Origin: Aplectana chamaeleonis
Taxonomy: Eukaryota > Nematoda > Chromadorea > Rhabditida > Cosmocercidae
Assembly: GCA_029168955.1 (NCBI GenBank)
Contig: JAPDOI010001485.1
Location: forward strand, 110,583-174,582
Direction of reading: 5' to 3'
DNA: 64,000 nt
Below, piece by piece: positions 1,273 through 56,262 of the stretch (positions are counted from its first letter, which is position 1; each line of letters starts with the position of its first letter). The notes beneath the pieces were generated by a model, which saw only the letters and a list, made by a program, of their open reading frames with translations, was not told where the DNA came from and ran no database searches. The translations under genes were made by a program, and so were the position numbers.

Positions 1273-1699
1273 GGGTAGGGTTCGCGACAGAAAAGTTTGT
1301 TGTGGCAATTTTTTGAGAAGGGCCTGGTCATCACAAAATTTAAAATAAGTGGAAAGTCGGAGAAGAAAAACGCTCAAAAACAAGCTGTTGCTGGGTCTCA
1401 GCCAGCCCCCAATCAAATAGATATCTACAATTGCTTGTTTTGTCGTCTTTTATACTGCATTTGAAGTAGTTGCTGGACACCGAGAGACTGCTAACTTTTT
1501 GAGCGGCAAAATAGAAGGCGGAAAATAGGCATTTATAAGAAGCCCTTTTAATCGGGGGTGTGCGTACACCCACCAATTAGCCGTTCTGACCTGTTTATGT
1601 GTGTTTTTACGCAGATTCTTCTTTATTTTCACTTTTGTGATGACCAGACCTGCACTCTTATGAAGAAAAGTCAACAATCGTTTCTATCGCAAACCCTGC
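1273..1699. mobile_element. Diverged copy of the 98-536 TTAA element
   Basis: It starts after TTAA at 1269-1272 with GGGTAGGGTTCGC and ends near AAACCCTGC. The segments with GGTCATCACAAA and AAAAACGCTCAAAAACAA are shared in order with the 98-536 copy. Its ends have decayed, so it is probably older. Confidence 0.6.
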
Positions 1700-1767
1700 T
1701 AACGCACTTGAAGGGTAGTTCTTCGGCGCAATTGGGGTAGCCTCCCAGGGCAGTGCACTAATTCAAC

Positions 1768-1829
1768 CTCCCCTTGTCAGCAGCTGCTGCAGTAAGTTGT
1801 TCGCAGCAGCTGCTGCTGACAGCAAGGGG
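1768..1829. repeat. CAG/CTG-rich hairpin
   Basis: CCCCTTGTCAGCAGCTGCTG at the left faces CAGCAGCTGCTGCTGACAGC followed by AAGGGG at the right, forming an imperfect stem of about 25 bp. It lies inside the 1059-3055 element. Function unknown. Confidence 0.6.
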
Positions 1830-2325
1830 TTCCACCCGATATCTGTCCTAGAATGCAACCCTCCTTGCGCCGAGGTTCTACCATACGGGTGAGTGCTCTG
1901 AGTTTTGGCCGAGCAATAGCCGATAAATAGCCACAAAATGCCTGATTTTCGCATAATAGTCGAGAACAAGGTCGTGTTCGGAAAATAGCTGGTTGCCGCG
2001 AAATAGGCGACAAATAATGGTCTTCGAGAAACAGCCACGAAAAATGCTCGCAAGGGGGAGTGTAAGACGCGTTGTTGAGGCAGATTTGGAAGTCAACACC
2101 GCCGCCGGTTCAACTACCCATGTTCTCTCGGTTATTCCTCGGTTATTTCGCGAACAACATGGTCGCAGCCACCTAGCAGCCAAGAAATAATCAAGAAACA
2201 CTCGAGAATCTGCTCGACAGGATTAGTTGTTGAGCCTGGTGGGCTATTCCTCGGCCAAGACTCTCAGCGTGTCTTTAATGATGTTGTATCCGTCACTGAC
2301 GCATCATTGCTACTATCAATGCCTT

Positions 2326-2803
2326 ATAAAGCACAGTCCAACCTCAGAATCGGTTTTCTGTTTTCCGTCTATCTTGAGAACGGTCCCACGCTGATTCCAA
2401 TGATGTCTCTCGAATCGTTCGACACTCCCTGGGATTGGAGTTATGGGCCCTCAAAGATTGAGCTGCGGAAGCAAGGTGGACGAGTTGTCAGAGGCTTGTA
2501 ACTTACTTTATTACAACCGATGTAGGCGAGCCGACCTGAATGAAGATGGAGGCTGAGAAAGAAGGGAGGAACAGGGCTTTGATCGGAAAGCATCGTTCAT
2601 CTCGCCAATGGTGAGCTCGAAAGATCGTAAAAGGGGCGGGCCAAAGTGGCTTCCCGAGTTGGGCGCCCCAGGGTGGCTTCCTCCCATATCTCGCTTATTC
2701 GGAGGAACTGAGAGCTCGCACTTGGCAAGTATTACATGGGGTGGGTCTACTCCACAATTATCGAAATCTCAGATTTCGTCCCTGAGCTTGGACTGTGCCT
2801 TTA
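2326..2803. mobile_element. TTAA-family element, subfamily AGGCACAGTCC
   Basis: The ends are AAGCACAGTCCAACCTCAG and GAGCTTGGACTGTGCCTTTA. The target sites have decayed to TTATA. About 480 bp, non-coding. The internal blocks TGAGCT(A/G)(A/C)GGAAGCA, GTC(C/A)GAGGCTTGTAA and ATCTCGCTTATTCGGAGGAA recur at 3.4, 19.0, 27.4 and 37.0 kb, so this is a high-copy family. Confidence 0.75.
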
Positions 2804-3344
2804 TAGGTCATCTGAACAGTTCCGTAGATATTATACTACAAACATGACAAAGGCATTTAGAATTACATCCTCTCTTCACTTGAAAAAAAGTTAAAATGCA
2901 ATGAGTAATTTTTTCTGAAAATTTTCTGTTTTCTGATTTCTGTTTTCTGTTTTCTGGTCGTTTTGGCCTTTCTGTTTTCTGATTTCTGTTTTCTGACAAA
3001 CTCGATTTTCTGTTTTCTGTTTTCTGAAATTTTTCAAAAATTTCCGCACACCCTGATCCTGACCGTATACATACTCTGTCACTGCTGCTGTTGCATGTCT
3101 GCTACGTTGGGCACTGTAACAAGTTGCAGCGTCAGTATTTTTGAATTTCTGTTTTACTTCCCTTTTTTTCCTAGAAATTTGTTGTTGTGTGAAAATTTTG
3201 GAACGCAGCGCTCTAATTTTGTATTGTATCGAATCTACATTCGAAAATCGTATGTGCTAGATTCCTGTGTTGAACGACTGCCACTGGCTGTGGCAGTTTG
3301 TTGTATGTATGCATTAAGACACATGAGTTGTTGTGCTGATTTAA

Positions 3345-4066
3345 AGGCAGTGTTCACGATAAGAATCGTGTTTCTGCTTTTCCGCCTATCTTGAAGACGG
3401 TCCCATGCTGATTCCAATGATGTTTTTGGAATCGTACAAGATCTTCTGGGTATGGAGTAATGGTTCCTCAAAAATTGAGCTAAGGAAGCATGGTGGATGA
3501 GTTGTCCGAGGCTTGTAATTTCCGTCTTTTGCAACAGATGTATGCGACCTAAAAAGACTAAAAATCAGCTTAGATATAAAACAGCTGAAAAGCTACGAAG
3601 GTAGCGCGGTGAAAAACGGGCTAGAATCAGAGTTTCTAGGGCCCAAAGATGCTAGTTTGTGCACACGTGCACAGCGCTGCACAAAAAGATTGCAGCCTCA
3701 CGCCGAGCAGTCAAAAATCATGGACATTCAGAGGAAGGAATAAATTCGAATTCGCCTAATAAAAACAGTTGAACAATGAAAGCAAGCATTTCTGTCAATG
3801 TTTTTGCCTAGACGAGTCCGAAGGATAATGTTCATTGATTGAAATTCAATTTCGAACCAGCTGATGTTCTTGATATCAGAGATCATCGGTGCCGATGATG
3901 TGGAGTGGGCTCGTCCACCATCAAAAGACAAGAAAGTTCAGGGTTCAAATTTGACCCGAGACAGCGGTTTTTTCGCGATTTTTTCTCATTGGCCCTACTA
4001 CTCTGAACCCAGAAAAGGGTTTAATAAGGAAAAGAAGACAAACATATTTTATCGCTACCACTGCCT
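3345..4066. mobile_element. Compound of two TTAA-element fragments
   Basis: TTAA at 3341-3344 is followed by AGGCAGTGTTCACGATAAGA, which matches the 19.44 kb copy for about 205 bp. From about 3550 the sequence changes to the reverse complement of the 51,954-52,504 element, sharing GTGCACACGTGCACAGCGC and GGTTCAAATTTG, and ends CGCTACCACTGCCTTTGA at 4066-4070. The junction is a recombination or truncated-insertion point. No coding potential. Confidence 0.65.
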
Positions 4067-7530: not shown

Positions 7531-7871
7531 CTCAGACATATAGGGGACTGCAGGCGCGGGCCAAGAAACAGCGAGCCAGAAGAGTTGACGCGCCTCATTG
7601 GATCGTTGCGCGCGGCTCGTTGGTTTGGCGCAGAACGCTGGCAGCCGAGCACGTTTTCTGAGCCATCCGCGCCCGTGGAATCGTCGAGGCGCGGGCAATT
7701 TTGCGACTTCCCATGCTAATTTTCGCAACTTCCCTCGCTCGCTCAGGCACTTGCCCGCGCCAATTGTTTCACCGATCCGCGCACGTTTTCTCATTGGAGC
7801 GCGTTTGCCGTGTATGATGCAATTCGTCGATTTTTCCCTACCGTTTGCTATTTTTAACACAATTGATAGAC

Positions 7872-8447
7872 TTACACGATTTTTGGAAGTTTTTTGCCGT
7901 AACTGCAGTTTAACGTCGCAGTGCACGTTATGGTATGTTTACACAAGGTGTTGAGTTGATCGCAAAACGCTTGGCTCCGGGCGAGATTGAACCAGCATCA
8001 TATTCCCTTTCCGGGGGAGCGCCTTATCGCACTGCACCACCGGAGCGCCAGCGCCGCTCTCACTCCAACTGCTCGGTAAATCTTTCACCGAAGCAATCAT
8101 CCTTTCACCCGCATAACGGGATGAAACAGGTATACCGCCAGAGACTATCTAACAGTCGTAGACCTGTCAAGATGATGCCCTAGTTAAGTCTTACACGATT
8201 TTTGGAAGTTTTTTGCCGTAACTGCAGTTTAACGTCGCAGTGCACGTTATGGTATGTTTACACAAGGTGTTGAGTTGATCGCAAAACGCTTGGCTCCGGG
8301 CGAGATTGAACCAGGATCATATTCCCTTTCCGGGGGAGCGCCTTATCGCACTGCACCACCGGAGACCCAGCGCCGCTCTCACTCAACTGCTCGGTAAATC
8401 TTGACCGAAGCAATCATCCTTGCACCCGCATAACGGGATGAAACAGG
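7872..8447 (-). mobile_element. Tandem pair of tRNA-like SINEs with 13-bp TSD
   Basis: Two copies of about 258 bp (7872-8130, 8191-8447), about 95 percent alike by eye, are separated by 60 bp. The pair is bounded by exact ACAATTGATAGAC at 7859-7871 and 8448-8460. On the - strand each copy contains TGGTGCAGTGCGATAAGGCG (A-box-like) and GGTTCAATCTC (B-box-like), with 7-bp acceptor-like pairing GCTCCGG/CCGGAGC. The T stem is degenerate, so this is a tRNA-derived retroposon rather than a working tRNA. A single duplication around two copies means a dimer inserted, or one copy was duplicated later. Confidence 0.65.
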
Positions 8448-8460
8448 ACAATTGATAGAC

Positions 8461-9730
8461 GGAAAAGTATAGCTCATGCATAACTAATTATTACTAAGTA
8501 TACTGAATACAGTTTTATCTAACAATTGGTTTTACCTAACCATGATCTTCTCAATTTTAGATAGATATAGAACCAGTGTAGAACAAATGGTAAAAATAAT
8601 CTCCAAAACCCATGATTAATACCCTGCAACACGATGCTCTCAATTTTAATAGAAGCCACAAGAAAAGTATAATATTGGTGATATAATCTTTTTTTAAAAC
8701 CAAACAATCACCAACTTTTAATACAAAGCCAATAAATCTTAGCAAGAATTTATAGCATGGACGCAAATAATTTCTCACCAAATTTTACGAGACAACCCGG
8801 CCTTTTGATTACATCTACTGGCTGAGAGGAGCTATACGTTTCAACATTTTTTTGAAAAATATGTTAGCTTCAGAAGCAGAACCGAGAAGTTCACGAGAAA
8901 CTTCCTGGAGTGACTATTCACTCTCTGCAACAGAACGTTGCAATGATTCAAACGGATCCTCACAAAGATACTCGTCAAGGAAAACTCGGACATAGCGAGA
9001 GATTCGATTAAAGGAGAAGAAGACTACAGAAGCAAATGTCCTAACAACAGTGCTTTGCTCTAAATATTCTATACAAACAATATGCTGTTGACTAGACTTT
9101 GTTCTTCTCCAGTAATAACGTGAAGAGTATACGTGACCATTAACGAACACTCTCGAACTAAAAATGACATGAACACATGTGAACGGAGAAGTGGAGAAGG
9201 CGAAGATAAAGTGCTTACTAAGGTAACTCCTCGTCTAATAACAGTTGCCTGTGCGATGCGTCGAGATCAGACATAGATAGATATTCTGCTATTTGGTGGA
9301 ATATGTATATTCTCACCCACGTAAATTTCAACAGGGAATCTGAAGAAAGAATGGTTTGATAAATGAAGGCATAAGACCAAAATTATGTAGTAACTGAACC
9401 CTATTATGTGTTTGTTTTCAGCTTTAGCTAAAAGTGCTCCATAATCGCCTTTCTCTACACAGCAGTTGTTCTTGAAAAGAATTCGAATTTTTTTAGAGAG
9501 CAAGTATCTAAAAAAAGCATGATCAAAATAGTACTGCAACAATCTGACTTCAAATGTAAGACAAAAACGCAGTATGAGCAAATAGTTGACCTACCTATTC
9601 CCGGCTACACGACGCGACGCGAGATTAAGCAGGAAGAACCGGCAAGAAACAAAAACGAACAAAAAAAGAAGGCAAGGTTCGCAAAAATTCTAGAAATTGG
9701 CGTCGAGTAGTTTGCTTGCCTGCCACACTC
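8461..9730. other. Interior of the CTCAGAC element, no recognised gene
   Basis: AT-rich. A 78-codon open frame on the - strand (8914-9150) has no recognisable motif. Nothing here resembles a transposase DDE/D block. Confidence 0.45.
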
Positions 9731-10007
9731 GCACCTCTCTATTTCACGGCATAAACAAACAGCGAGCCGCGCATCATTTTCTGGTCATTTGCTGTTCATT
9801 TGCGGCCGTGTTTGTTGCTCGTGGCTCCCTCCATACAATTGTTGCGAAATTTTTGGCCGCGGCTGACTTACATTTAATACTCAGCCTCGAAATTTCGCCC
9901 GCGGCTTGCCAAAACAGCCGCCTTGGGCCGCGCCTGCACTCCTCTATATGTCTGAGCTTAGATTTCGAAAAACGGGTTGCGCGCGTGGCCGATTCAAAAC
10001 CAAATCT

Positions 10008-12255: not shown

Positions 12256-12620
12256 TACCTGGATAGTGTGGATAGGTACGGCTCACTGAGTACCGTGGAT
12301 ACTGTGGAAGCTAAATATGAACTCTTTCTTTCTATTCTTGACCACACCATTGATTTATTTGTACCGATTAGTCTGGTGTCTACGAAGAAGGCATACCTCC
12401 CTGAGCACTTGGAAAATCTCTCACAGGAAATCTCAAGCCTGGAACATGGCAAATAATAGTAACAGGGCTGAGGATTGGTGCGAATACAAAAGAGTTGCGA
12501 CACTATTCGAAAAACGTTTGAAGAAGTATAATAGTAATAAGGAAAGGAAAGTTATCGAGTCTAAAAATAAAAATTCATTCCTACAGATTACTTAATCCGA
12601 AACTCAAAAATAAATCTCAG

Positions 12621-14315
12621 GTGGGATGTCTTGTGAGAGAGGATGGTTCCAGTGCAGTAGAAGATGGCCAAAAAGTTCAACTTCTGGCAAATATGTTTAA
12701 GGAATCATTCCTTGAGGATACTGACTTGGATGAGAGTGTTAGTCCTTCTCTTTTTCCTGTTATGCCTGACTCTGTATGGTTTCACCCCGGGGAATTGTCG
12801 GAGCTATTAGCCAAATGGCCTAATTCGTTTTCTGACACGCCGGATCACATACCATTATGTTTCATTAAAAAGGTGATTGATATCATAGTTATCCCGCTTG
12901 CACACATTTTCAACCTGAGTTTTATGCGTGGAGATGTTCCGAGTAGATGGCGTACATCCTTTGTTACTCCTATACCAAAGAGGAAGCCATTTTCTGATCC
13001 CAACAATTACCGGCCTATCAGTATCACATCTATTTTTGCAAGACTTTTTGAAAAAGTATTGAAGAAAAGAATTATGACTCATCTGGAGGAGCACTCCATC
13101 ATCTCGGAGCACCAACATGGTTTCCAAAAGGGTAAATCCACAATTTCGGCGATGCTGCAATCACTTGAAGACTGGAATCGTGCGCTGGACAATGATGCTG
13201 GTGTGGATGTTATTTACCTCGATTTTTCCAAGGCGTTTGACAGAGTTTCTCATCGCAAATTAGTATATAAACTAGAAATAGTGGGTATCCATCCGCGTAT
13301 CGTGGCTTGGATTCGTGCTTTTCTCACAGGTAGAACTTTCATTGTCAGGCTTAATAGTACGTTTTCCTCTCCCTTTGCAGTCCTTAGTGGTGTTCCCCAG
13401 GGTGGAGTGCTTTCACCTATTCTCTTTAATATTTATACGTATGAGCTTCCCTCGATTATATCCTTGAACAACGTTGGCTGTTCGGCATTCGCTGACGACT
13501 TTAAGTTGTATAATCCTATTCGGACCAGGGAAGATTCAGAGTGTTTGCAAAAAGCCCTTAATGATGTAGCCAAATGGTCGTCTGAATGGAAATTGCCGCT
13601 TTCCAGCGAAAAAAACTAAGGTGATGAAGATTGGTAAGAGGCGAGTTAATGGCTTCTATACTATTGACGGTGTGCAGTTGAGCGAGGTCAGCGAGATTAA
13701 GGACCTTGGTTTTCTTGTCAAGGATGATCTTAGTTTCGATGATCACTGCCTCCAGGTCGCGTCCATGGCCAACAGGATGATGCACAGCGCGTTTCGAGCA
13801 CTTTCAACTACTAACGCAAATGTCCTGACTGAGGTGTATAAAACGTACATACGTCCACTTATGGAGTATGGCACGGTGGTATTCAATCCATACAAAAAGG
13901 ATCCATCGATGCGCTGGAGAAAGTCCAGAATACTTTCACACGTAGAGTTTACTTCAGGACATCGTGGTTTCAGACTAATCGCAACGTGTGTCATGTCACC
14001 AGAAATGCCAAGTTGGGCCCTAACCACTCTAGAGCACAGGAGAAGAAGGTTTGATATGATAATGATGTATAAAATCATTCATGGGAGTGCTGGTATCAAG
14101 GCTAGCCGGCTGTTCAACCTGAGATCGTCAACCACCAGGCGCCGGTGAAATTGGGCCTCGTTGGGGCCAGGCGGAATGTAAGACAGCACTTTTTTGTCAA
14201 TAGGGCGGGGTCTGAATTCAACAAATTACTTCGGTCAGGCTTGGTAGTTGGGAAGTTCACTGAATTCAAAAAGGCGCTTGAGATTTATCTGTTCTCCCAG
14301 GAGCGATGTTTGTAA
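12621..14315 (+). pseudogene. LINE ORF2 reverse transcriptase and C-terminus
   Basis: A 332-codon open stretch (12,621-13,619) holds the RT core: VIYLDFSKAFDRVSH (motif A, first catalytic Asp), GVPQGGVLSPILFNIYTYEL (motif B) and SAFADDFKLY (the YADD-type catalytic pair). A one-base shift at about 13,618 leads to 13,621-14,148, with IKDLGFLVKDDLSFDDHC and YIRPLMEYGTVVFNPY, the typical C-terminal region of CR1/jockey polymerases. Further frame breaks follow near 13,920-14,150. It would copy LINE RNA at the nicked target. Inactive as it stands. Confidence 0.9.
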
Positions 14316-14480: not shown

Positions 14481-15777
14481 AAGTTTAACGGAGAATCTTG
14501 TAAAATGTAATCTCTCGTCAGTCACTACTTATCAAAAGTTGGCCTATGAATGACCGCCAAATCCGGTTTTGGTCATTTCACTACATTTCCCAGTTTTTTA
14601 TTAGTTGTGGTTATTTTGGGCCAAATCATTTTCAAACATATTTCGAGTTTTTTTTTAATATTTTATTTTGTCAGCTTCTATATTTCTTCTAGTTATAACA
14701 TTGCCAAATCATTACTTTTGCCAGAAAGCTAAACTTTTGGAAATTTCATATATTTTTCCCAAAGGATCCCTTTCTGACCTGATTTTTGCTTAGCGATTCC
14801 CATTCTGGAGAGACGAAACCTTTTATGCTTTTACGCTTTTGCCTACGGTAAATAATTAAATCATTACCGATCGGTGTTGTCGGACGACTATAACTCCTAA
14901 AAATTGTGACCCGCAGACATGAAAACACGACCCTTTCTTTCCTACTGAGGTCCCGTACACGTTTTACGGCATCGTGCGCACTTCCAGCCGGGCCCCGTAC
15001 ATTTTTTGCGACGTCATGCGCTTTCCCACTGGGGTCTCGCACACTTTCTACGGCGTCCTGCACACTCCCACAGTGGTCCCGTACATTTTGCAGCGTCCTG
15101 CGCACTCCCACTAGGGCCCGCACACTTTCTACGGCGTCCTGCGCATCCCCACTGAGGTTCCGCAGACTTTTTTTACGGCGTCCTGAAAATTCCCACTGGG
15201 GGCCCGCGCACTTTCTGCTGCGCCCTGCGCACTCCTCAAATCCTTTTCACACCAACCGTCTCAAAGAGGAAACAATCTTGGGCGGAAGCCTATAATTAGC
15301 TGTGTTGATTTTCATTAGTTCATTTTTAAGGTTCAGTGAGCGTAGGATGGTTTACAATAACATGTTTACATGTTTTTACCCGTCTTGGCCCTCAATTTTG
15401 AGGTTCCGCTTCAATTGAGCTTTCAGCTCCAACATTGAATAGGAGCTAGTTGCATCCATTTCCAGCCTCCTGCCAGAAAAGTGACTTCCTAGCTAAATTT
15501 TAAGTGTTGCAACAAGATCGTGAACGCCGTCTGAAAAAAAGGAGATTAACAGTTCTTTGACCAAAATCACGTGGTTTTCGCCATTTTTCTCGAGCGCCAA
15601 GAAGCCATTCCAAACCATCTTTTCGTGAATACCCCAACTTTTTACGCTCTTTCCGATGGAGAAAAAACCGCATTTCCACCGCTTCTCACCTGCATTCTGA
15701 AATCGTTGTCAGATTTGAGAAAAATTCATTTTGAAGAGAGTCGTTCGAAAAGGACGATAAGCACGCGAAAACGCTCC
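14481..15777 (+). repeat. Family H, second copy, right part
   Basis: This continues the host repeat of the LINE. GACCGCCAAATCC and TTTTGCCAGAAAGCTAAA mark the right foldback arm (to about 14,740), followed by a tail with a 42-bp-type array (14,930-15,240) and the blocks AACATGTTTACATG and GATCGTGAACGCCGTCTGAA. It is replaced at 15,778 by the CTCAGACG-ended sequence. Confidence 0.7.
14930..15240. repeat. GC-rich minisatellite, about 42-bp units
   Basis: Repeats of GGTCCCGTACA...TTTCTACGGCGTCCTGCGCA spaced about 42 bp, diverged from one another. Related arrays lie at 24.69, 29.2 and 29.96-30.43 kb. The unit is a multiple of 3, so it stays open in some frames, but the translations carry no domain. 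Confidence 0.75.
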
Positions 15778-16180
15778 CTCAGACGTTCGCCGTTGTCTAC
15801 AGGACACGGATGAGATGTCACCTCACGCAATGCTCCCTGTAGGCATCCAAAAAGGGCAGAGATCGCTCCTCGAGAACTGCCCGTCGCCCCCCTCCACGGT
15901 GCCGTAGACAACCTATCTGCGGAATCGCTTCTCCTGTATACACTCAATCGGGGGAGGGTCTCCATCCCCGATTCCGCGTTTACATCCTATCAACATCCCG
16001 TAGACCTGATATTACCATTCCAGTAAATCATCAGCCGCCTTATGACGTCACCAATCGAATGGGGGTTTATCTCCTTAGAAAACTTGATAATGAGGCTCGA
16101 TTTTCTCTATTTCGGTTCTGATCTAACCCGAACAGAGAAATTGGACCCTGTCAACCAAATTTTTTAGGAAAAGACTAACA

Positions 16181-19429: not shown

Positions 19430-19559
19430 TTAAGACTTTCAAAGGCAGTGTTCACGATGAAAATCGTTTTTCTGTTTTTCCGCCTTTCTTGAAAACGGCC
19501 CATGCTGATTCCAATGGTGTTTCTGAAATCATACAAGACCTTCTGTGAAAGCACTCAGA

Positions 19560-20290
19560 CAATGGGGTGGACCGACCGCGGGCGAAAAATCGCTTCTAGT
19601 ACCGACCGCGTGCCACTTTCGTACTGACCGCGTGCAAAAAATGTATTCCGTACGGAACGCGGGCATTTTCGTACTGACCGCGAAAGCGAAATAGTGCACG
19701 CGGTCGATACGCCTGAGCTCCGTACCAACCGTTAGCGATTTTCCATGGAGGCGTACTGACCGCGCGCAGTCATCTTTGCGCGCGGTCAGTAAGAAACATG
19801 ACTTTTCGCTGCGGTCGGTACGTGAGCACACGCAGTCAGTACGCAAGAGCTCGCGTTCAGCACGCAGGCAAACTGGTGAGGGAGATCGGTTTTTTAGATT
19901 GCACGGTCGGTACGCAAGTGTTCGCGTTCAGTACGCAGGAAAACTGGTGGGTGAGGTCAGTTTGTCAGTCCGCGCCGTCGGCACGGATGTGCTCGCGTTC
20001 AGCACGCAATCGCCCGCGTTCAGTACGCAAACAATTTTGTAGGCGAGGTCGCTTTGTCAGTCCGCGCGGTAGGCAAGGATGTGTTCGCTACATACAAGCG
20101 TGCAGTACGCAATCGCCCGCGTTCAGTACGCATTCAATTGCGGAGGCGAGGTCGTTTTGTAAGTTTGCGCTGCCGGCACGCAATGACACGCATTCAGTAC
20201 GCAATCGCACGCATTCTGTAAGCAAGTGAACCCGTGAGTGTGGTACATACGCAAATGCACGTGCTTAGTAAACAACGAAATCTCGAGCGT
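19560..20290. repeat. Left subterminal array, about 21-bp GACCGCG units
   Basis: Units such as GTACTGACCGCGTGC run on the + strand to about 19,790, then the reverse complement (CGCGTTCAGTACGCAA) runs on to about 20,290. The period is about 21 bp. The local G+C is far above the flanks. The array is arranged as a mirror image of the right array. Confidence 0.8.
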
Positions 20291-20299
20291 TTGCACATT

Positions 20300-21600
20300 T
20301 AGCCTATCGATTCTTCAGAGGCAGGGTTCTCCCTGAAAAGTTTTGACCTTGTTGTTCCGGTAGAGAGTCAGATGGGTTGGTCTCTGTGACAGCTGCATTT
20401 TTAGAACTGAGAATCCGACGAGAATCACTGAAATGGAGCAACACAATTTTATTCACACATCTGGCTTCATCTATCTCAAGCCTATATTTCGTTTTCTTCA
20501 AAACAGTTAGTGCTCTTGAAAAAATCGTTATTCGAGGATGGAGCAACAACATGAACGGGCGGAGTGATCCTAATTATAGCTACTTTTGAGCTGTTTTGTG
20601 TGTTTCTGTCCTGGGCTCTTGCTGAATTCCGCCATAATGAGGGTCAAATACCAATTTTGAGTTATCTGTGCACCACAAGACTTTGAACCATGAGGAAAAT
20701 AAAAATGTTTAAAAAATTCTAAAAAAAAAGAAAATCGAAATCGAAAATCTAAACATTTTTTCATGTTTTTGTATAGCTTGGTCTCTTTAGTGAACGGAAT
20801 TGTCGGAAGGGTCTCTGACAGACCTTCATTTGTGAAGAAAAAACAGTCTGAATTCATTGGTAAATTTGATTTGAATTTCGCGCCAAAATCGTTTTTGGCG
20901 TTTTTCTGCATTTGCTCGTCACTGTCATTTTTGAAGAATTTTTGCGCCAAAAATGTTTTCCATGTTGTTCGACGGTTGTATAAAAAATCAATGAAAAAGT
21001 GTTAGATGATCGACCCAGAAGTGCTTGTTGATCGACTTCACAGCAGTCCTCTGGCTCAAGTTTTGTGGGTGATAAATTATACTAATACGTATATAAAGTT
21101 CATATGTATAGGAATATACATCAAGTATGAACAATTACATGATCGCCAACTATACAATTACATTAGACCCTATCTTCAGAAAATTCATGGTAGGTTAATC
21201 AAAAGAGGTAAGGTAAGAAAGAGAAGTTGACAAAGTTCGTTTCGCCCCTGGCCTCAGACGAACTTTATCAAACAGCTCTTCCGGGTCTCCTCAGTGAGGA
21301 AAAGAACTGTCGATGAAAAAGAAGGATGAATACGAAAGCATGAGCCAAGCAGAGTGAAGCAGTGTTAAAAACGCTAGAAAGAGGTATTAGGGCAAGAAGC
21401 TATAGTATACTATCAATATCAGAATGAAGTCCATATGATCACAGTCCTTATTTGACAGTATCGAACACCGACCTATCAACAGTGAAAACTTAGCATGTTA
21501 TGCTTTTTACCAATTGTGTTATACTTTTCTTATCATCTCTTAGGTTGAACTTATATGCTATCATTTTTTGTTTATATATGCATTTTATTATATTTACTTC
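20300..21600. other. Interior of the 7.8 kb element, no recognised gene
   Basis: AT-rich. A 126-codon open frame on the - strand (20,570-20,950) is Lys/Phe-rich without a motif. GAGGCAGGGTTCTCC at 20,318 may be the remnant of a TTAA-element end. There is no GIY-YIG domain downstream of the RT. Confidence 0.45.
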
Positions 21601-21607
21601 TACAAAT

Positions 21608-23332
21608 TCAGATGTATATTGGTTTCCAATTAAAACTGCTTTTCATTTCTTTGAGTTTTTCCGTGAAGGAATTTAAATTTGAACAGATATTAGCTAATCT
21701 CAAGGTCTCCGTGTAAATTGTGGATGCTTTGACTTTTATAGAGATGTCAGAATGAGCATGAGGAAATCTTTTAACTCTGAAATTAAAATCTTTTGTCTTA
21801 TTATACAATTTTGTGTTTATTCTATTATTAATTATTTCTATACTAATGTGTAAGTTATTGGTTTTATAGGGATTGTTGTGCGTCTTTTTGAGCTCCAATA
21901 CATTCTTGTATATTAGTGAAATTTGACTGTCCACAAATGTTTCATCTTTATTATGGATTATAAGCAAGTCATCCATATATCTAAAAGGTTTGAAAAGTAC
22001 GTTATTTTCAATTTTGCGCTAATAGAGTACCTATACTCCAACATGGAAACTGTTATATCAGCTAACAATGGGCTGAAGTTACCACCCTGAGGAACTCCTT
22101 TTCATCTGTTGAAGCACAAGTTCTCCGAAACGACAGTAACTGTTGCGTAAAAGATAGTCAACGTGATATATCAAGTCTGTGATGGTATAATATCTGTAAC
22201 CGCCTTTATCTAGCTCAGAATCTCGATAAAATACTCTGTATCCATTAGTAACTATCCATTTTTTATTAGCATTTTTGAAGCAAATTTTCAAAAATTCTTT
22301 CATGTTATACAGAATAAAACTGTGCGGAAGGTTAGTGAACATATCCGTAAAATCAGCAGAATAAACTTGAACCCCATTGGTACTCAATCTACATAATTGA
22401 GCTGCTATGTTAATGTTGGAGATAGACCAATAGGTCTTGAGTCCTCCCTTCCTTTGGTAACTCACATTGGTATAATTAATAAAATGTGTCTTGAGAAACG
22501 AGAAAATTTTTTGTAGTTCTACTGCTAATGGTTTCATGCTGCTGTTTCTTGCTCCCGTAATGAATCTGAATTTTATGGGATCCTTATGCAATTTCGGTAA
22601 AGCGTAGATGATGGGTAGCTCACAATCTATGTCAAATTTAAGTCCTGCTATAATATTGAAAAACTTATGCTTTAAAATAGTTGTTTGCCTGTTGGCATTT
22701 TGAATCAGCTTATATGTGTCATTATGGTTTTGTTCTCTTTCAAAATTACCGTTTATGATATTAATTCCAAGTTCTTTCATGAGAGTTATGGTGTAGTATT
22801 TCTTACAAATAATCCCATTCAAGTGTTTCAAGTGTTTCTGGTATTCTTTTATACTCTTATAAGGTATCAGGCTATTAGACTGCCTACTGAAGGAAGTCCC
22901 TTGTAGTATTGGTTTGAGTCTTTTTCTGTACTGTTTTTTGAAGTGCAACTGCAAGTTATTTATTTTAATAACATCTAGCTTGTACGTATTTTTCATATAG
23001 TTGATGAATTTCGCTGTAGCGTCGAAATAAGTTTGTGATATTTCACTCCTGTTATTCATCTTGTCTGTCACCTAGCCCGAATGGCTCAATTGTACACAAA
23101 AAATTGAAAATGAGGCTAGCAAAGTTGATAACACGGGAGAGGCTAGCTTGATCACAATTACGCACGATTCAAATAAATGCTCGAATCTCCACTGGCCATA
23201 ATTGATATCCCTAACGAGTTCTTCGTCATCCGAAACCTCTATGACCTCCTTGATCACCTCACTATCGAACACGCTAGTGGCGACCGCATAAACTTTTTCT
23301 CCCGTCTCCACCGAAGTGCCCAAGAAGTTCAA
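21608..23332 (-). pseudogene. Penelope-like reverse transcriptase, frameshifted
   Basis: Reading right to left, a 330-codon stretch (23,071-22,079) contains IYALPKLHKDPIKFRFITGA, VYSADFTDMFTNLP (motif A, catalytic Asp) and, after a frame change near 22,100, GVPQGGNFSPLLADITVSML (motif B). A second frame change near 21,985 gives FRYMDDLLIIHN (catalytic pair), followed by KTKDFNFRVKRFPHAHSDI. The LPKLHK block and motif order fit Penelope-like rather than LTR or LINE RTs. It ends at TGA 21,608-21,610 with no GIY-YIG endonuclease. An 86-codon frame (23,332-23,072) precedes it in the same frame, separated only by TAG at 23,072-23,074, so the N-terminus may extend upstream. Confidence 0.75.
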
Positions 23333-23511
23333 CTAAAAAATGGCGATTTCCTTCGAATCGCAGGGGTTTTTCTTTATACATTCCAATTTCTCCTATTTCT
23401 CTCTTTCTTTATCTCCTCCGCTCTCTTCTCATTCTTTGCAACTTCAGATACTTTTTTCCTCTCCTCGTTTTCATCTCTTCATTAATGTGATATTTCTCTT
23501 CGGTTTAACTA

Positions 23512-23690
23512 CCTATTTATTTATTTACAATTTTATTTACTCATTTATTCACTTTTTTATTTAATTACTTATTTATTTATTTATTTACTTATTTATTTAT
23601 TTATTTATTTACTTATTTATTTATTTACTTATTTATTTAATTATTTGTTAATTGACTTGTTTACTTATTTATTTATTTATTTTTGTCGTT
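23512..23690. repeat. ATTT microsatellite
   Basis: About 180 bp of ATTT/ACTT tetranucleotide repeats with small interruptions. It lies 5' of the Penelope-like RT. Confidence 0.9.
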
Positions 23691-23717
23691 CTCTGGACCA
23701 GATTCCGGTCCGCATTT

Positions 23718-23842
23718 GCGGACTACGGTTATTGCATCATAAGACACGTGTTAGTCGTGCTGGGGCCGCTTTTTCCCGTCACGATTCACCCTTCTCCCAG
23801 CATGATTATCACGTGTCTCATGATGCAACAGTCGTAGTCCGC
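23718..23842. repeat. Hairpin repeat
   Basis: GCGGACTACGGTTATTGCAT...GACACGTG faces CACGTGTC...ATGCAACAGTCGTAGTCCGC. The arms are about 33 bp around about 55 bp containing CCCTTCTCCCAGCATGATTA. A related phrase (CCCTTCTCCCAGCACGATTA) recurs at about 24,200 beside CAGCACGA/TCGTGCTG pairs, so this is a small foldback family. Confidence 0.65.
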
Positions 23843-24689
23843 AATTATTTATTTGGCTGTCAAGGCGATATTTCTCTTTTTGCCTTCTGTTTATTGATCT
23901 CGATCTTTTACTATTTCTTGCTCTTTGTCTTGATCTCGATCGTCTTGCCCTTCTGATTAATGCTATTGTTAATCTTCTTGTTCTAGTTGGTGTAGTAATG
24001 CCTATGAATGGTTCAGTAATAATATTCAAAATTTGATGGTTTCGATTTTTGCGGAACTCATCGACAAATGTCCTTTCACGTGGACTCAAATGAAAATTTT
24101 CTTTGCAGAGAAGAGCGAGTTTATCAGCGGACACTTGCGGACAGACGCGGTGGCAGCACGACGATAATCGTGCTGGACTAGCGGGTCCCGACACAAATAC
24201 CCCTTCTCCCAGCACGATTATAATTGTGCTGCGTGCTGAAACAGCGACTCGTCGCAATCGTGGAGCGGAATTTCAGCTCGATAACGACAGTACAATCAGT
24301 TTCAACAGCTGGCGTATGCCATTGAAAAGGGTCTACAATCACTCTCAACGAGAACGTTCGATCCCATGAGAATTCGTTGAATAGAACACACGAGTACTAA
24401 GCTCACAACGCGATTAACACATTGAATTTTTTATAGAAGGATAAGGAAAGAGACAAAGGAAGGAAGTGCGAGAGTATAAACGGAATATTGTAAAATACAT
24501 ACAAGAAATGTCATCTTAGGCTGAAGAAATGTAGTAAAATTCCTCCTAACACAAAAAGTTTTATTTGAAAAGTGACACTCAGCAGGTATGCATTGCTCCC
24601 ATTGGAATGGCGCGCATTAAACGCCAAACATAGTTATCATACATAATAATGAACGGCTGAGTTGACCAGAGATCGTTGACCGATGACCA

Positions 24690-24885
24690 GAGAATGTGCG
24701 GGACTCAGGAGTGCGCCAAGCGCCGGGGAGGGTGTACGGGACCCAACTGAGAGTTCACCAGGCGCTGGGGAAGGTGTGCGGGACCCGACTGGGGGTACGC
24801 CTAGCGCCGGGAAAGTGTGTTGGACCCAACTGGGAGTGAGCCGACGCAGGTGAAAGTGTGTGGGACCGGACTGGGTTTCGAGGAA
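24690..24885. repeat. 42-bp-type minisatellite, opposite orientation
   Basis: About 4-5 units with GTGCGGGACCCAACTGGGAG, the reverse complement of the CACTCCCA...GGGTCCCGCAC motif of the arrays at 15.0 and 29.2-30.4 kb. It suggests that a family H-type piece was carried here. Confidence 0.7.
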
Positions 24886-25149
24886 CGACAATACCTAAGT
24901 ACTCATTTGGCAACGATTTCATCATTCGATGCGTCATAATACACGCCTACAAGTACGCCACAAAGCGGCGTGAGTGTGCACCTTGTTTTTCATTAACATG
25001 AAATTAAAAAAACCAAACCTCTCCAGCTGGATCGCGGCTGGGGCGATTTTGAGCTAAACACGCGGTAGGCTTGAAACGGCTAGGGCCTCGATTATAGTTG
25101 GCCGATCGCCGTAGCCAGCCCGGTCGATAATCACGAAAGACATGAATGA

Positions 25150-25486
25150 GGTGGGGTGGAAAAAACGTATTCGCCAACAACCCGCCGAGGGACGTCGAAG
25201 GGAAACGGAAGGGTTGATACCGCGCGCGGCAGAGGAACAGATCAACCCATCTTACACTGTGTATCATGGAAATGCAAACTGTGTTCCGTAGCGATATCAC
25301 TACGGAAAGATAAAGGTTCTATCGAGAAGCGAGTACTCTCCAGCGATCCGATGCGAAAAAATCCGGCGGCCGCGGCGGAAGCCAAGGAAGGCGAGAGGTG
25401 GCCGTGGAGCGCGCATTTCGTGCTGAAATTTCACCTCATATTTCCTTCTACTTCCCGGCGGTTTGAAGGCGAGTACGACCCCGGGT
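25150..25486. mobile_element. GGGGTCGTATTCGCC-family element
   Basis: CGTATTCGCCAACAACCCGC at the left and GGCGAGTACGACCCCG at the right, with shared interior (GAGGTGGCCGTGGAGCGCGC; GGAAATGCAAACTGTGTT) in reverse orientation relative to 35,234-35,553. The left terminus is decayed. No protein. Confidence 0.65.
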
Positions 25487-25699
25487 GCTTTTTGCAACCT
25501 CCATCGTCCATGCTTTTCATACGTTTCGACCGGGTCGGCCAAGACGGGTTACGGCGATTTTTTCATCCAATTCTGACAGGGACCTAGCTCCCTCATTTAG
25601 AGCCGATTGAAGTGTGGCGTATTGGGTTTATCATGTCAAGATATCCTTATTTTTGCCATAACCGATCGCTCCTCAGCTTGCTCCCCCAAGCTCATTTAA

Positions 25700-26423
25700 A
25701 GGCAGCAGACACGCTCGAAAAAGTTGTTGAGATAACTACGTTACCGAAGTCGCATGGCTCCTAGTAAACTGCTCACGCCGTTGGAAGCGTCAAAAACGAG
25801 TCAAAACTACTAAATACCAGCAATACAAATCGAAAAATCTCTGCAACCCCGCCCCAAAATATACTCTGTTTATCTTAAATTGCACAAAACACGGTCCGCC
25901 AATAGTCCTCTTAATGGCCCGCTAGTACCGTAGTGTACGTCCACGACGCGTTCTCGGCAGACCCGCGTGTGCACCCGGTGTGCAGAGCAATCGACTCGTC
26001 ATTGCCGTCACTCGGCCACCCTCCCCTGCCACCCGGGTCTGCCGAGAACGCTTCGTGGACGTACACTACGGTACTAGCGGGCTAATTAGAGGACTATTGG
26101 CAGACCGTGTTTTGTGCAATTCAAGATAAACAGAGTATACAAACTCGTCCAGATTGATAGTACTAATACGGCCACTTTGGCTAGTTTGATGCTTCCAACA
26201 AGGTGAACCTTTCAGTATAGGCTGTAATTGTATATCGGCTTCTCTATTTCAACCGTCTTGTTGCTAATATTCGCTGTTTCAACCGCGCGCCGTAAGACTC
26301 GTCCACTTTCACCTGATACCAAATTAACCGTTTTCCGTTTTTTCGTCAGTTCCCAGTACAACCAGCTCCAAACCTTTGATTTATGTCATAAAATCGATAC
26401 CATTTTGAGCGTGTCTGCTGCCT
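25700..26423. mobile_element. TTAA element, subfamily AGGCAGCAGACACGCTC, with nested hairpin
   Basis: It starts AGGCAGCAGACACGCTCGAA after TTAA (25,696-25,699) and ends GAGCGTGTCTGCTGCCT before CTAA. It aligns along its length, in opposite orientation, with the copy inside the Tc1 element at 48,758-49,251, apart from a 280-bp hairpin insertion. Confidence 0.8.
25862..26137. mobile_element. Palindromic MITE, TA target
   Basis: Arms of about 115 bp starting TACTCTGTTTATCTT. TA flanks both ends (25,860-25,861; 26,138-26,139). The host element resumes directly and matches the uninterrupted copy near 49,070. A TA target fits Tc1/mariner-type mobilisation. Confidence 0.75.
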
Positions 26424-26739
26424 CTAAGCAAACTAGACTTTGGATATTGTTGATTGAAAAAGCTTGTCCTTTGCTGTTTAAAAGCAAGCGGTTTTGGGCT
26501 GTTTCAACTTATTCGTGCGCTACCCCAAGCCCCACCCCTACTTCCAACGTTTGCTTATTTCCAATTATTTGGGACCAGATACTGACCTTCGTGATAAAAA
26601 CCTTTTTTTTCTCTTTTCACAAACCCTGCATCCGAGTATTAATGCGTTTCGAAAGAGCGCCAATTCATTGGAAGCAATGAATACCTGCCGCACGTGCATG
26701 CGTACTAATAGCGGCCGTCTTCAAAAATGTTTCGTACTG

Positions 26740-27357
26740 ACCGCGTGATAAAATCGAGCCTTCCGCGGTTGAGTGCGTACTAACCGCGGTCAATCCTACG
26801 AGCAACCTTTGTACCGACCGCGTGACAATGCGTCCCGACAGCGTGTGCATGCGCACCGACAGCGTAACAATGCTTACCGACCCCGTGCCAATGCGTATCA
26901 ACGGCGTGACAAGACGTACTGACCACGAGACAGTGCGTACCGACCGCGTAGCAATGTCTACCGACCGCGTGGCAATGCGTACTGAACGAGTGGAATTGCG
27001 TACCGACCGCGCGGCAATGCGTACCCACAGCGTGGCATTGCGTACTGACCGCGGCGCGGCGCGCTCCCACCGCTGTCAGTATCTGAAAAGCGGTCCTACT
27101 GACCGCGTGGCAATGCGTACTAACCGCGTTGCAGTGCGTACCGGCCGCGAGGCGATGCATACCGACCGCGTGGCAAGACGTACCGACCGCGTGGCGATGC
27201 GTACTAACCGCGTGGCATTCCGTACTGACCGCGTGGCCGTGCGTATCGACCGGGCTAATTTGCGTGCCGACCGCGTGCGAATTGCGTTCCAAACGTCGCC
27301 CATCCCGCTGTCGGTACGCAACCTGTCCGCGGTCGGTACGGAACATGTCCGCGGTCG
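26740..27357. repeat. Right subterminal array, 21-bp GACCGCGTGGCAATGCGT units
   Basis: About 25 units of TACCGACCGCGTGGCAATGC with a 21-bp period run to about 27,270, followed by two or three units in reverse (GTCCGCGGTCGGTAC) next to the terminus. Because 21 is a multiple of 3 both strands stay open: a 260-codon (-) and a 192-codon (+) frame overlap here. Both are products of the repeat, not genes. Confidence 0.85.
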
Positions 27358-27925
27358 GTCCATCCCATTGTCTGAGCAGGTATGGTCCCTCAAAGATTGA
27401 GCTATGGAAACATGGTCGACGAGTTGTCCGAGGCTTGTAACTTCCGTCTTTTGCAGCCGATCTATGCGAGCTGACCTGAGTAAAGAGAGAAGCTGAGAAT
27501 GAAGGGAAGAACGGGGCTAATGATTGGAAATCATCGCTCATCTCACGATCTCGAGCATTCATTTGTTCACGTCGGTGGGCGTGTGATGCGCTTTTGAGGT
27601 TTTCAATGCGCTCGAAGTTGCAACTTCGGGCTCTTTTGGGGCTCTTCCTGGCTCGTTTTCATGCGTTCTTTCGACGTTAACGTTACACAGTGTCCCTCCA
27701 CTACCCAATCCTAGTGGAATTTCGAGAACTTTTTTCATCGTGAACACTGCCTTTAAACTTTCAATGTTTAAAATTGATTACGAATGTTCGGTGCATGTCA
27801 ATGACCTCATTTATGAAGACTAGTGAGGAGTATGATTCTCTATGGAGGCCTGATGCTCTCACTATTCTTCGCAGCCTTTTCTTGTATGTCTGCTCCCGAC
27901 CAGCAATAAATAGCTTGTCTATCTT

Positions 27926-28475: not shown

Positions 28476-29199
28476 ATTATAGCGAGAACTCTATTGGCAT
28501 TGACAAGACAAAGTTCTGAGCGCATTCTCACCCATGACAAACCATGCACAAACTATAGACATCCTCAGATTCCTGAAAGTTTAGGTTCCTGGCAAAAAGT
28601 AAAGATTTGGCATGGCCATTTTTTCGAAAAATTAGAAATATACTCATTTAAAAAGGGAAGGTAAGAAAATGAATAAAGTTTTGAAATATTCCTGAGAACG
28701 ATTTGGCGTAGAATAATTTGATTTTTGGGAAATGTAGTGAAATAGTTGAAAGTATGATTTGGCAGTCGAGTTTGAACCAACTATTGAAAAGAGTTGAGCA
28801 AAAGGAGGAATCGCATCAAATGAGCTTATCCGTAGAACATATCGAAGCTAAATCACGCGTGATATGGAACAAACAGTTGATTTTACTTCACTTAATACGT
28901 GAAGACTGCGGCATTCCAGCTCTGAACGAGCTTTTACTGCTTGCCTTATCACGCGTGATTTAGCTTCGATATGTTACGCCAAATCGTTCTCAGGAATATT
29001 TTAAAACTTTTTCCATTTTTCTTTACCTTCCCTTTTTTAAGGAGTATATTTCTAATTTTTCGAAAAAATGGCCATGCCAAATCTTTACTTTTGCCAGGAA
29101 CCTAAACTTTCAGGAATTTCATTTATTTTTCCTAAAGGTTTCCTTTCTAACATGATTTATGCCTGGTGGTGTTAATTCAAAGTAAACCCACTGATGCCC

Positions 29200-29440
29200 T
29201 GCCCCGCCCCTCCCCCTTCTATGACGTCTTGCGCACTCCAACTGATGGCCTGCACACTTTCTATGACGTCCTGCACACTCCCACTGATGACCTGCACACC
29301 CAACTATGACGTCCTGCACACTCCCACTGATGACCTGCACACTATCTATGACGTCCTGCACACTCCCATCAATGTCCTGCACACTTTCTATGACGTCCTG
29401 CACACTTTCTACGGCGTTCTGCGCACACCCATTTGGGTCA
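29200..29440. repeat. 42-bp-type minisatellite in family H
   Basis: Repeats of CTATGACGTCCTGCACACTC with CCACTGATGACCTGCACA, spaced 39-42 bp. It is a variant of the CTACGGCGTCCTGCGCACTC unit found further on. Confidence 0.8.
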
Positions 29441-29765
29441 CAAGCACGCTCATGCCAATCATTGTTTTTCCGCAGTGCTACCTTAACCCTCTTTAAAAAT
29501 TTGCCAAGTGTCAGCTTGGGTATGAACACATCGTAATAGCCAACAATCATGCTTGCATAATTTCGACCTCCTCAGCCACTTCCCAGCGGCTTCTCGGAGA
29601 GAGCGGTGTGTGAATGAATGCATACCGCTCCTCTGCCCTTTTACACCCCGCATGTTATGAGCGTGTGTTTTCGTTCGTTATCATGCTTTGTTCAAGAAGG
29701 TTACGCTAGCAAATAATCGGCATGGGCGTACTTGTATTTAGGTCCCACACGTTGTACGGCGTCTG

Positions 29766-29958
29766 GTGCTATGTGGGAAAGGGGGGGGGGCACTGTTGTA
29801 TCGCACTTGGCCACGCCCATTTTTCCGTACCGCCATGACTCTCCTGATTTTGGCAGGGGAGGTAAACCCCGGGTAGGTGCTCAAATTTAGTGCGGCACAG
29901 TAAAATGGGCGTGGCCAAATCCATCGCGCCATAATGCCCCCCCCTTCCCACATAGCAC
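29766..29958. mobile_element. GC-rich hairpin insertion in the minisatellite
   Basis: GTGCTATGTGGGAAAGGGGG faces CCCCTTCCCACATAGCAC. Inner arms GGCCACGCCCATTTT and AAAATGGGCGTGGCC also pair. The interrupted minisatellite phrase GGCGTC[C/T]GG resumes after it. Confidence 0.7.
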
Positions 29959-29959
29959 C

Positions 29960-30430
29960 CGGCGCCTTGCGCACTTCACTTGGTCACCGCACACTTTCTA
30001 CAGCGTCCTGCGCACTCTCATTTGGGTCCCACACAGTTTCTACGGCGTTCTGTGCACGCCCATAAGGGTCCCGCATACTTTCTACGGCGTCCGACGTTTT
30101 GTCATTTTGGTCGTACAAACTTTCTACGGCGTCCCGCGCACTCTCATTTGGGTCCCGCACACTTTCTACGGCGTCCTGCGCACTCTCATTTGGGTCCCGC
30201 ACACTTTCTACGGCGTCCGGCGCGAGAGCGGTGTGTAAATGAATGCATACCTCCCCTCTGCCCTTTTATACCTCGCATGTTATGAGCGTGTGTTATCGTT
30301 CGTTATCATGTTTTGTTCAAGAATGGTTACGGTAGCCCTGCGGAAAAAATGATCGGCGTCCGGCGCGCTCCCGCTTGGGTCCCGCACACGTTCTACGGCG
30401 TCTTGCGCACTCCTACTGGGGTACCGCTGA
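29960..30430. repeat. 42-bp minisatellite, regular units
   Basis: Units of 42 bp with CACTCTCATTTGGGTCCCGC followed by ACACTTTCTACGGCGTCCTG are nearly identical at 29,990-30,215 and resume at 30,345-30,430. A 130-bp duplicated block separates the two parts. Confidence 0.85.
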
Positions 30431-36883: not shown

Positions 36884-37300
36884 AGGCACAGCCCAACCTC
36901 AAAATTGTTTCTCTGTTTTTCTACTTGACTTGAAAAAGCTCCTACGCTGATTCCAATAATGTCCCTGAAATCGTAAAGACTCCCTAGGAACGGAGTTATG
37001 CCCCCTCGGAATATCAACTGCGGAAGCAAGAGTTGTCCGAGCCTTCTAGCTTCTGTCATTTGCAACCGATGTATGCGAGCCGACCTGAAAAAAGAGAGAG
37101 AGGCTGGGAATAAAGGAAATATCGGGGTTATTGATCGGAAATCATTGCTCATCTCGCCACTGTTACGTTCGAAAGATCATAAAAGGGGCGCACCAAAGTG
37201 GCTTCCTGATGTGGGCGCCACATTGTGGCTTCCTCCTATATCACGTTTATTCGAACAAATCGAAAACCTCAGATTTCGTCCACGAGCTTGGACTGTGCCT
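36884..37300. mobile_element. TTAA-family element, AGGCACAGCCC copy
   Basis: A 417-bp copy of the 2.3 kb subfamily ending GAGCTTGGACTGTGCCT. TTAA at 36,880-36,883 and 37,301-37,304 is shared with both neighbours. Confidence 0.8.
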
Positions 37301-55554: not shown

Positions 55555-56262
55555 CTCAGACGTTCGCCGTTGTCTGCAGGGCGCCGTTCCGCCCAGAATG
55601 AGTCATCGCTGGCAAACGAGCAGCAGCCCTACGCGGGGCCGTCTCGGTGTGCTGTTGAGCAGGGGGCGATGGGCTGTTAAACAGCTCATCGACCAGTAAC
55701 CCCGCCGACTGCTATGAATCTATGCAAACCGAGTCGTTGTCCACAGGACGACAAATCGGGATGTCTACGGCTGTGCAGGTCGACGCTCAGTTCTACAGAA
55801 CGTTGCTTCTTAATCGCTACGGACTAAAAACGATCGATGTCGTTCACCGCTGATTCTTCCATGTACAACGTGCCACCGATTCGCTTTTCCCACCTCTTTT
55901 CTCAAGAGAGTGCATTTTCTACATTGCGGGGTAATTAGAAACGAAACCGGTGAAATCGAGCCTTATTATCAAGTTTCGAAAGGAGGATATTCTTGTTCAA
56001 GGGGTGACTTAATTAGGCGGCTGATGCTCCAATGGGATGGTAATGTCAGGTCTGTGGGATGTTGATAGGATGTGATCGCGGAATCGAGGATGGAGACCAT
56101 CCTCCGATGGGATGTCTACAGCAGCAGCGTTTACGCGGATAGGCTGTCTACGGCACCATGGAGTGGGGCGACAGACAGTTCGCGAGGGGCTGTCCCTGCC
56201 CTTTTTGGATGTCTACAGGGAGTATCTCATCCGTGCCCTGTAGACAACGGCGAACGTCTGAG
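55555..56262. mobile_element. CTCAGACG-ended element, complete short copy, TSD AA
   Basis: CTCAGACGTTCGCCGTTGTC and GACAACGGCGAACGTCTGAG are exact 20-bp inverted ends. AA flanks both sides (55,553-55,554; 56,263-56,264). The two halves match the two ends of the 15,778-18,867 composite. 708 bp, non-coding. Confidence 0.8.

Follow-up and report, generated by a model that had tools for sequence, protein, structure and literature searches.

The DNA considered here is a 64,000-nucleotide stretch of the nematode Aplectana chamaeleonis (assembly GCA_029168955.1, contig JAPDOI010001485.1, positions 110,583 to 174,582), which we call the window and in which positions are counted from the first letter. 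It holds a segment at 19554-27376 that starts and ends with inverted copies of CTCAGAC and carries arrays of 21-bp units near both ends, and the question it raises is what kind of element this is and what moves it. We find that the segment is as good as certainly a DNA transposon, and very likely a non-autonomous one that is mobilised in trans. The explanation we favour, and hold to be fairly probable, is that this element and its hundreds of relatives in the genome transpose by cut and paste but are not autonomous, a CMC-type (CACTA/Mirage-like) transposase acting on them in trans.

Ends, insertion site and genomic copies

As an initial annotation of the window had proposed, the outermost 28 bases of the two ends form terminal inverted repeats (TIRs) with one mismatch (27/28 paired), and the dinucleotide CA stands on either side of the element (Table 1). 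That annotation also described an exact uninterrupted host copy at about 3.4 kb. When we joined the flanks with a single CA, they matched 3340-3550 over 211 bp at 85.8% identity, with 29 mismatches and one gap. This site is an uninterrupted target whose length agrees with a 2-bp duplication, as claimed, but at this identity it is not an exact copy. The joined flanks also matched 2348-2603 (80%) and 36901-37155 (74%).

We then searched 1,036,593,504 bases in 2087 contigs of the genome. A 27-base end pattern, allowing up to three mismatches, was found at 752 and 740 places, while the reversed-pattern control gave 0 and 0. First-look candidates for the terminal 147 bp numbered 840 on the left and 872 on the right, with 40 of each scored. 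Of the 40 left ends listed, 20 were examined, in stretches no longer than 10 kb. A paired right end was present in 16 of these 20, and L028 had a variant right end; for L015 (at a contig end), L018 and L026, right-end pairing could not be judged, and these three were left out of the duplication counts.

Among 34 paired elements whose flanks were read, 31 have 2-bp target duplications, one has a 3-bp duplication and two have none. The window copy and 17 examined copies account for 17 of the 2-bp cases, for which the chance probability is about 6e-20 at 1/16 each; the eighteenth, L014, has a 3-bp duplication (ATA/ATA). Duplications of 2 bp were also found in 9/9 further pairs from the list of TIR matches, in 2/2 short elements (462 and 222 bp), in the 1254-bp element L051 (TA/TA), and in C131 (AT/AT) and C119 (AA/AA). 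Eleven distinct dinucleotides occur among the duplications of the 18-copy set, and 7 of the 31 2-bp duplications are TA, which is above an even share. A TA target is therefore preferred at most and is not required, and Tc1/mariner was rejected on this ground.

The initial annotation had named two outcomes that would undo its reading: ends that never pair elsewhere, and a junction produced by rearrangement. Paired ends turned out to be numerous in this genome. That the inverted ends reflect a rearrangement with no insertion could draw on two older relatives, L029 and L030, neither of which has a duplication (0/2), but the duplications in 31/34 and the uninterrupted 3.4-kb site contradict it, and we give it next to no credence. 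As a separate observation, L030 (2709-9900) and the left end of L014 lie about 150 bp apart on contig C1380; the flanks of L030 are unequal (TA/AA), and L014 is the copy with the 3-bp duplication.

Eight copies of 7.9 kb differ pairwise by 1.6% on average and six copies of 5 kb by 2.9%; so little divergence within these two subfamilies means that, on a genomic scale, they spread recently. A nested fold-back repeat of the window copy is missing from 8/8 complete or near-complete copies of the shorter subfamily. C119 and C131 measure 11.4 and 9.9 kb between their ends, and their inserts may post-date the last move.

Polarity of the 21-bp arrays

We defined an array unit by its 12-bp core, GTACCGACCGCG, with up to two mismatches. 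The outer 2 kb of the window copy contain 39 such sites, compared with an average of 0.27 and a maximum of 3 in 100 Markov-1 controls. The units run +++++-+-------- on the left and 21 plus followed by three minus on the right, in agreement at both ends with the initial description of arrays of GACCGCG units that switch orientation in mirror image. Since the two ends are inverted, a mirror likeness between them is expected; what stands out is that polarity switches inside each of them.

This polarity is conserved. In the left 1 kb, all 19 complete copies read +++++-+ and then minus (L030 has one extra plus unit first), and in the right 1 kb, the same 19 read plus and then two or three minus at the extreme end (L029 has one stray minus). 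L051, a twentieth copy, reads ++++-++ and then minus on the left, where one early unit was missed at the threshold; its right end closes with three minus units. At their ends, L029 and L030 share only about 74-80% identity with the window copy, and they have little of its interior, but the array pattern is kept. The outermost unit sits inside the TIR. With the 19 copies pooled, 252 of the 379 listed spacings between neighbours of the same orientation on the right are of 21 bp, against 57 of the 213 listed on the left, where the rest are mainly of 29, 50, 30 and 22 bp.

What the arrays are for can be approached through the smallest relatives. Elements of 222 bp (L032), 462 bp (L031) and 1254 bp (L051), each with a 2-bp duplication, contain TIRs and array units and little else, and probably, therefore, nothing beyond the ends is required in cis. 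Their arrays also disfavour one suggestion of the initial annotation, that large elements depend on the array structurally in order to move. Its other suggestion, that the arrays are binding sites for an unseen transposase as in CACTA-type elements, gives the best fit: insertion, the 2-bp duplication and paired ends are borne out, and the conserved polarity points to binding. A transposase made elsewhere would bind the outer 15 bp or so for cleavage, while the transposase or a helper protein would bind the 21-bp units and pair the ends. A spacing of 21 bp is two helical turns, which would place in-phase sites on one side of the DNA, and the change of polarity near each terminus may orient the complex. 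Maize En/Spm (CACTA) offers a likeness, in that its subterminal repeats lie in both orientations and bind a helper protein; unlike the element here, it has 12-bp motifs, CACTA ends and 3-bp duplications.

Further arrays of 21/42-bp period, with GCACACTTTCTACGGCGTCCT-like units, lie in the window at 14940-15235, 24685-24880 and 29119-30238, the latter two recognised by eye and from open frames. They are possibly the subterminal arrays of another transposon family.

The passenger reverse transcriptase

The interior of the window copy contains a retroelement with a reverse transcriptase (RT) frame on the minus strand. The initial annotation called it a Penelope-like RT. That it is an RT is confirmed by its database relatives, the two best of which carry RVT_1 and PF26215 and the nearest named ones of which are from Pristionchus, whereas a Pfam scan of two window frames of the passenger returned no domain; the retroelement may well be Penelope-like, a label given by eye.

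Ten of 20 informative copies carry this retroelement and ten do not (L015 is too short to judge). The left junction is identical in 10/10 carriers and the right junction in 9/10, L012 being deleted there, and nine of the ten copies without it could be read across the junction. L022, which is otherwise near the window copy, is among those that lack it. A single junction, together with presence and absence among copies, indicates one old insertion that was copied along with its carrier.

We also considered whether the RT could be the engine, which would make the element a TIR-flanked retroelement. Its presence in half of the informative copies and one open frame of 534 amino acids (aa) might favour this, yet ten copies do without it, nine of them with a readable junction, and elements of 222 and 462 bp have no room for it. 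Three members (window, L030 and L051) looked like carriers of RT genes, but the RT near L051 falls outside its 1254-bp element. As mobile copies without an RT exist, we rejected this role and consider it very improbable; the RT is a passenger with no part in mobility. Elsewhere in the window, 12522-13619 holds another RT frame (Pfam RVT_1, E 1.7e-35).

Table 1. Features of the CTCAGAC-ended element and of two further elements in the window
Feature	Position	Strand	Description
Whole element	19554-27376		7823 bp
Left target-site duplication	19552..19553		CA
Left TIR	19554..19581	+	28 bp, CTCAGAC start; first array unit in inner part
Left array	19569..20200		outer block mostly +, inner block -
Passenger retroelement	21074..23065	-	element positions ~1521-3512; borders approximate
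RT frame	22079..23071	-	330 aa, stop to stop, in passenger
Nested fold-back repeat	25860..26139		280 bp, 84% self-inverted
Right array, plus block	26734..27275		mostly 21-bp period
Right array, terminal minus block	27306..27361		3 units, last inside TIR
Right TIR	27349..27376	-	28 bp, one mismatch to left TIR
Right target-site duplication	27377..27378		CA
Second CTCAGAC element	7531-9956		2426 bp; TIR CTCAGACATATAG(G/A)GGA(C/G)TGCAGG; CT/CT duplication; different family
Third CTCAGAC element	55555-56262		708 bp; TIR CTCAGACGTTCGCCGTTGTCT; AA/AA duplication

Candidate mobilisers and the wider CTCAGAC group

To what group does the presumed transposase belong? Probably it belongs to the CMC group (CACTA/EnSpm-TRC, Mirage, Chapaev), as a Mirage/DUF1258-like or TRC-like member, although we are less sure of this than of binding in trans. 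The assignment, which is plausible rather than proven, rests on target size, C-N-C ends and arrays. CMC duplications are 2-3 bp, and those found here are of 2 bp in 31/34 and of 3 bp in 1/34 (L014). The initial view that the end type and the target size match no superfamily it could name was too pessimistic, since 2-bp duplications are reported for TRC and for Plavaka, though a literature search judged by the titles listed found no CTCAGAC-ended transposon.

Among known systems, TRC elements (SmTRC1 and Spongebob; animal CACTA/EnSpm) are described as having TIRs and 2-bp duplications (7/14 copies of SmTRC1), and SmTRC1 as having an internal tandem-repeat region. Unlike the element here, with its CTC, TRC elements end in CCC, SmTRC1 carries Transposase_21, and the TRC descriptions compared contain no 21-bp array of two polarities. 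Fungal Plavaka elements are likewise described with 2- or 3-bp duplications, but with TGT or CATCA ends, and CNEST, of the CMC group, with a TA duplication. Mirage makes a 2-bp duplication, and its transposase (DUF1258, PF06869) is weakly matched by fragments in this genome, whereas none of its genes was found between TIRs of the element. Ds and other non-autonomous partners resemble the family studied here, as their ends are kept, their interiors vary and they are moved in trans; for the CTCAGAC element, no autonomous partner was identified. It appears to work like a CACTA element but cannot yet be filed as one.

We looked for the transposase first within the family. A Pfam scan of 96 interior frames of at least 62 aa from three copies (window, L029 and L030) found no transposase, and for the remaining copies long frames were listed. 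Translated matches between the window copy and L029 fall in several frames on both strands, and a conserved coding exon was therefore rejected. A long member with a DDE transposase, as the initial annotation had suggested seeking, was not found among the paired ends and long TIR pairs sampled. In addition, the 100 places listed include 61 exact left ends without a partner, and 20 of these were read at +1.5 kb: six had known interiors, one (L063) a weak match, and 13 were unmatched, L051 among them at a point outside its element. From these 13, 45 frames of at least 42 aa gave RVT_1, Exo_endo_phos and one doubtful match, and no transposase.

A genome search with an 83-aa fragment of animal CACTA transposases, an approximate query, gave nine weak matches (E ≤ 10), the best with E 0.003 at two places, L103 and L104. 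These two are 99.1% alike over 3.2 kb and probably represent a recently copied element of its own; they contain CACTA/Mirage-like transposase fragments, as does L105. The frames of L103/L104 and of L105 match Pfam DUF1258 weakly, with E 0.012 and 0.00084, neither of which reaches its cut-off, and the L105 frame matches Transposase_21 with E 0.19. A published study treats DUF1258 as the domain of the Mirage transposases, which it describes as mostly from nematodes and close to Transposase_21 (PMC3985635). From these sequence matches, it is very likely that CMC-type transposons exist in this genome.

Several results weigh against a CMC-type mobiliser. The termini read CTCAGAC, where CAC (CACTA) or CCC (TRC) would be expected, and CA/TG repeats surround two of the 17 2-bp duplications of the 18-copy set (L013 and L019), which carry little weight. 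Transposase_21 (PF02992) had no genome match at E ≤ 0.001, although its control was blind and absence is not shown by this. Twelve long TIR pairs sampled by snippets yielded no autonomous partner, and in 11 of them at least one snippet was known family interior. As autonomous candidates, C7, C8, C17, C19, C23, C31, C39 and C47 (known interior only) and C27, C52 and C131 (known interior and unmatched stretches) were rejected; two snippets of C119 matched nothing. Finally, 9.2 kb around the C45 transposase copy contain no CTCAGAC and three scattered array-like matches (up to three mismatches), and the remaining CACTA/Mirage-like loci, read over 3.1-3.2 kb, contain no CTCAGAC. The CACTA/Mirage-like family that we read is thus not linked to CTCAGAC ends, and CMC membership is unproven.

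A PIF/Harbinger-ISL2EU (PHIS) transposase is another candidate mover of CTCAGAC elements. Its domain, DDE_Tnp_4 (PF13359), has at least 143 genome matches (150 of 314 candidates scored), and duplications of 0, 2 or 3 bp are in print for this group. Against this, L073 and L074 (3.5 kb each) lack CTCAGAC, and the single CTCAGAC on each strand of L075 (6 kb) lie 549 bp apart upstream of the gene and do not frame it. On contigs C1-C51, inspection by eye found no PF13359 match within 10 kb of 100 listed exact TIRs (of 1492), and we regard a PHIS source as improbable. The transposase that L073 and L074 encode is Harbinger-like and 263 aa long, and repeated stretches adjoin its gene.

The heptamer itself marks a wider group than the main family. 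In the window and 24 loci we counted 41 inverted CTCAGAC pairs, most of which belong to the main family for which the loci were chosen, the second and third elements of Table 1 being the independent cases. Further TIR similarity was present in 21 pairs, 18 of them with equal flanking dinucleotides, while 60 shuffled heptamers gave 0.12 TIR-similar pairs on average (maximum 3) and none with a duplication. A left end resembling the TIR of the third element also occurs at 15778, with no partner among the ends listed.

These elements bear on whether the transposase belongs to an undescribed superfamily whose signature would be CTCAGAC termini together with 2-bp duplications. Three window elements share these features (with CA, CT and AA), and a blastn comparison at E ≤ 1e-5 matched the main one to neither of the others. 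The lack of a CTCAGAC end in the 9.2 kb around C45 and of such transposons among the titles listed agrees with this, as does the lack of Transposase_21 or Plavaka (PF18759) matches in the genome at E ≤ 0.001, both under blind controls. However, the case is built on absence, and the CMC group has known examples of C-N-C termini, of 2-bp duplications and of subterminal arrays; we consider a new superfamily unlikely. A related idea is similarly tentative: CTCAGAC with variable 2-bp duplications would define a new superfamily or a new branch of CMC, and its transposase or a helper would recognise a phased 21-bp array whose polarity is fixed at both ends.

Unclassified repeats make up 51.8% of the A. 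chamaeleonis assembly in its published description (2,088 sequences, 1,036,852,746 bp; PMC10043924). The terminal heptamer with its 2-bp duplication is a simple key for sorting some of them, and if this tentative idea is true, part of this genome's 52% of 'unknown' repeats could belong to the CTCAGAC group. Since elements down to 222 bp retain their ends, the minimal cis-acting ends may have been marked by nature. With its polarity constant while interiors changed, the array offers a natural experiment in how a transposase recognises DNA.

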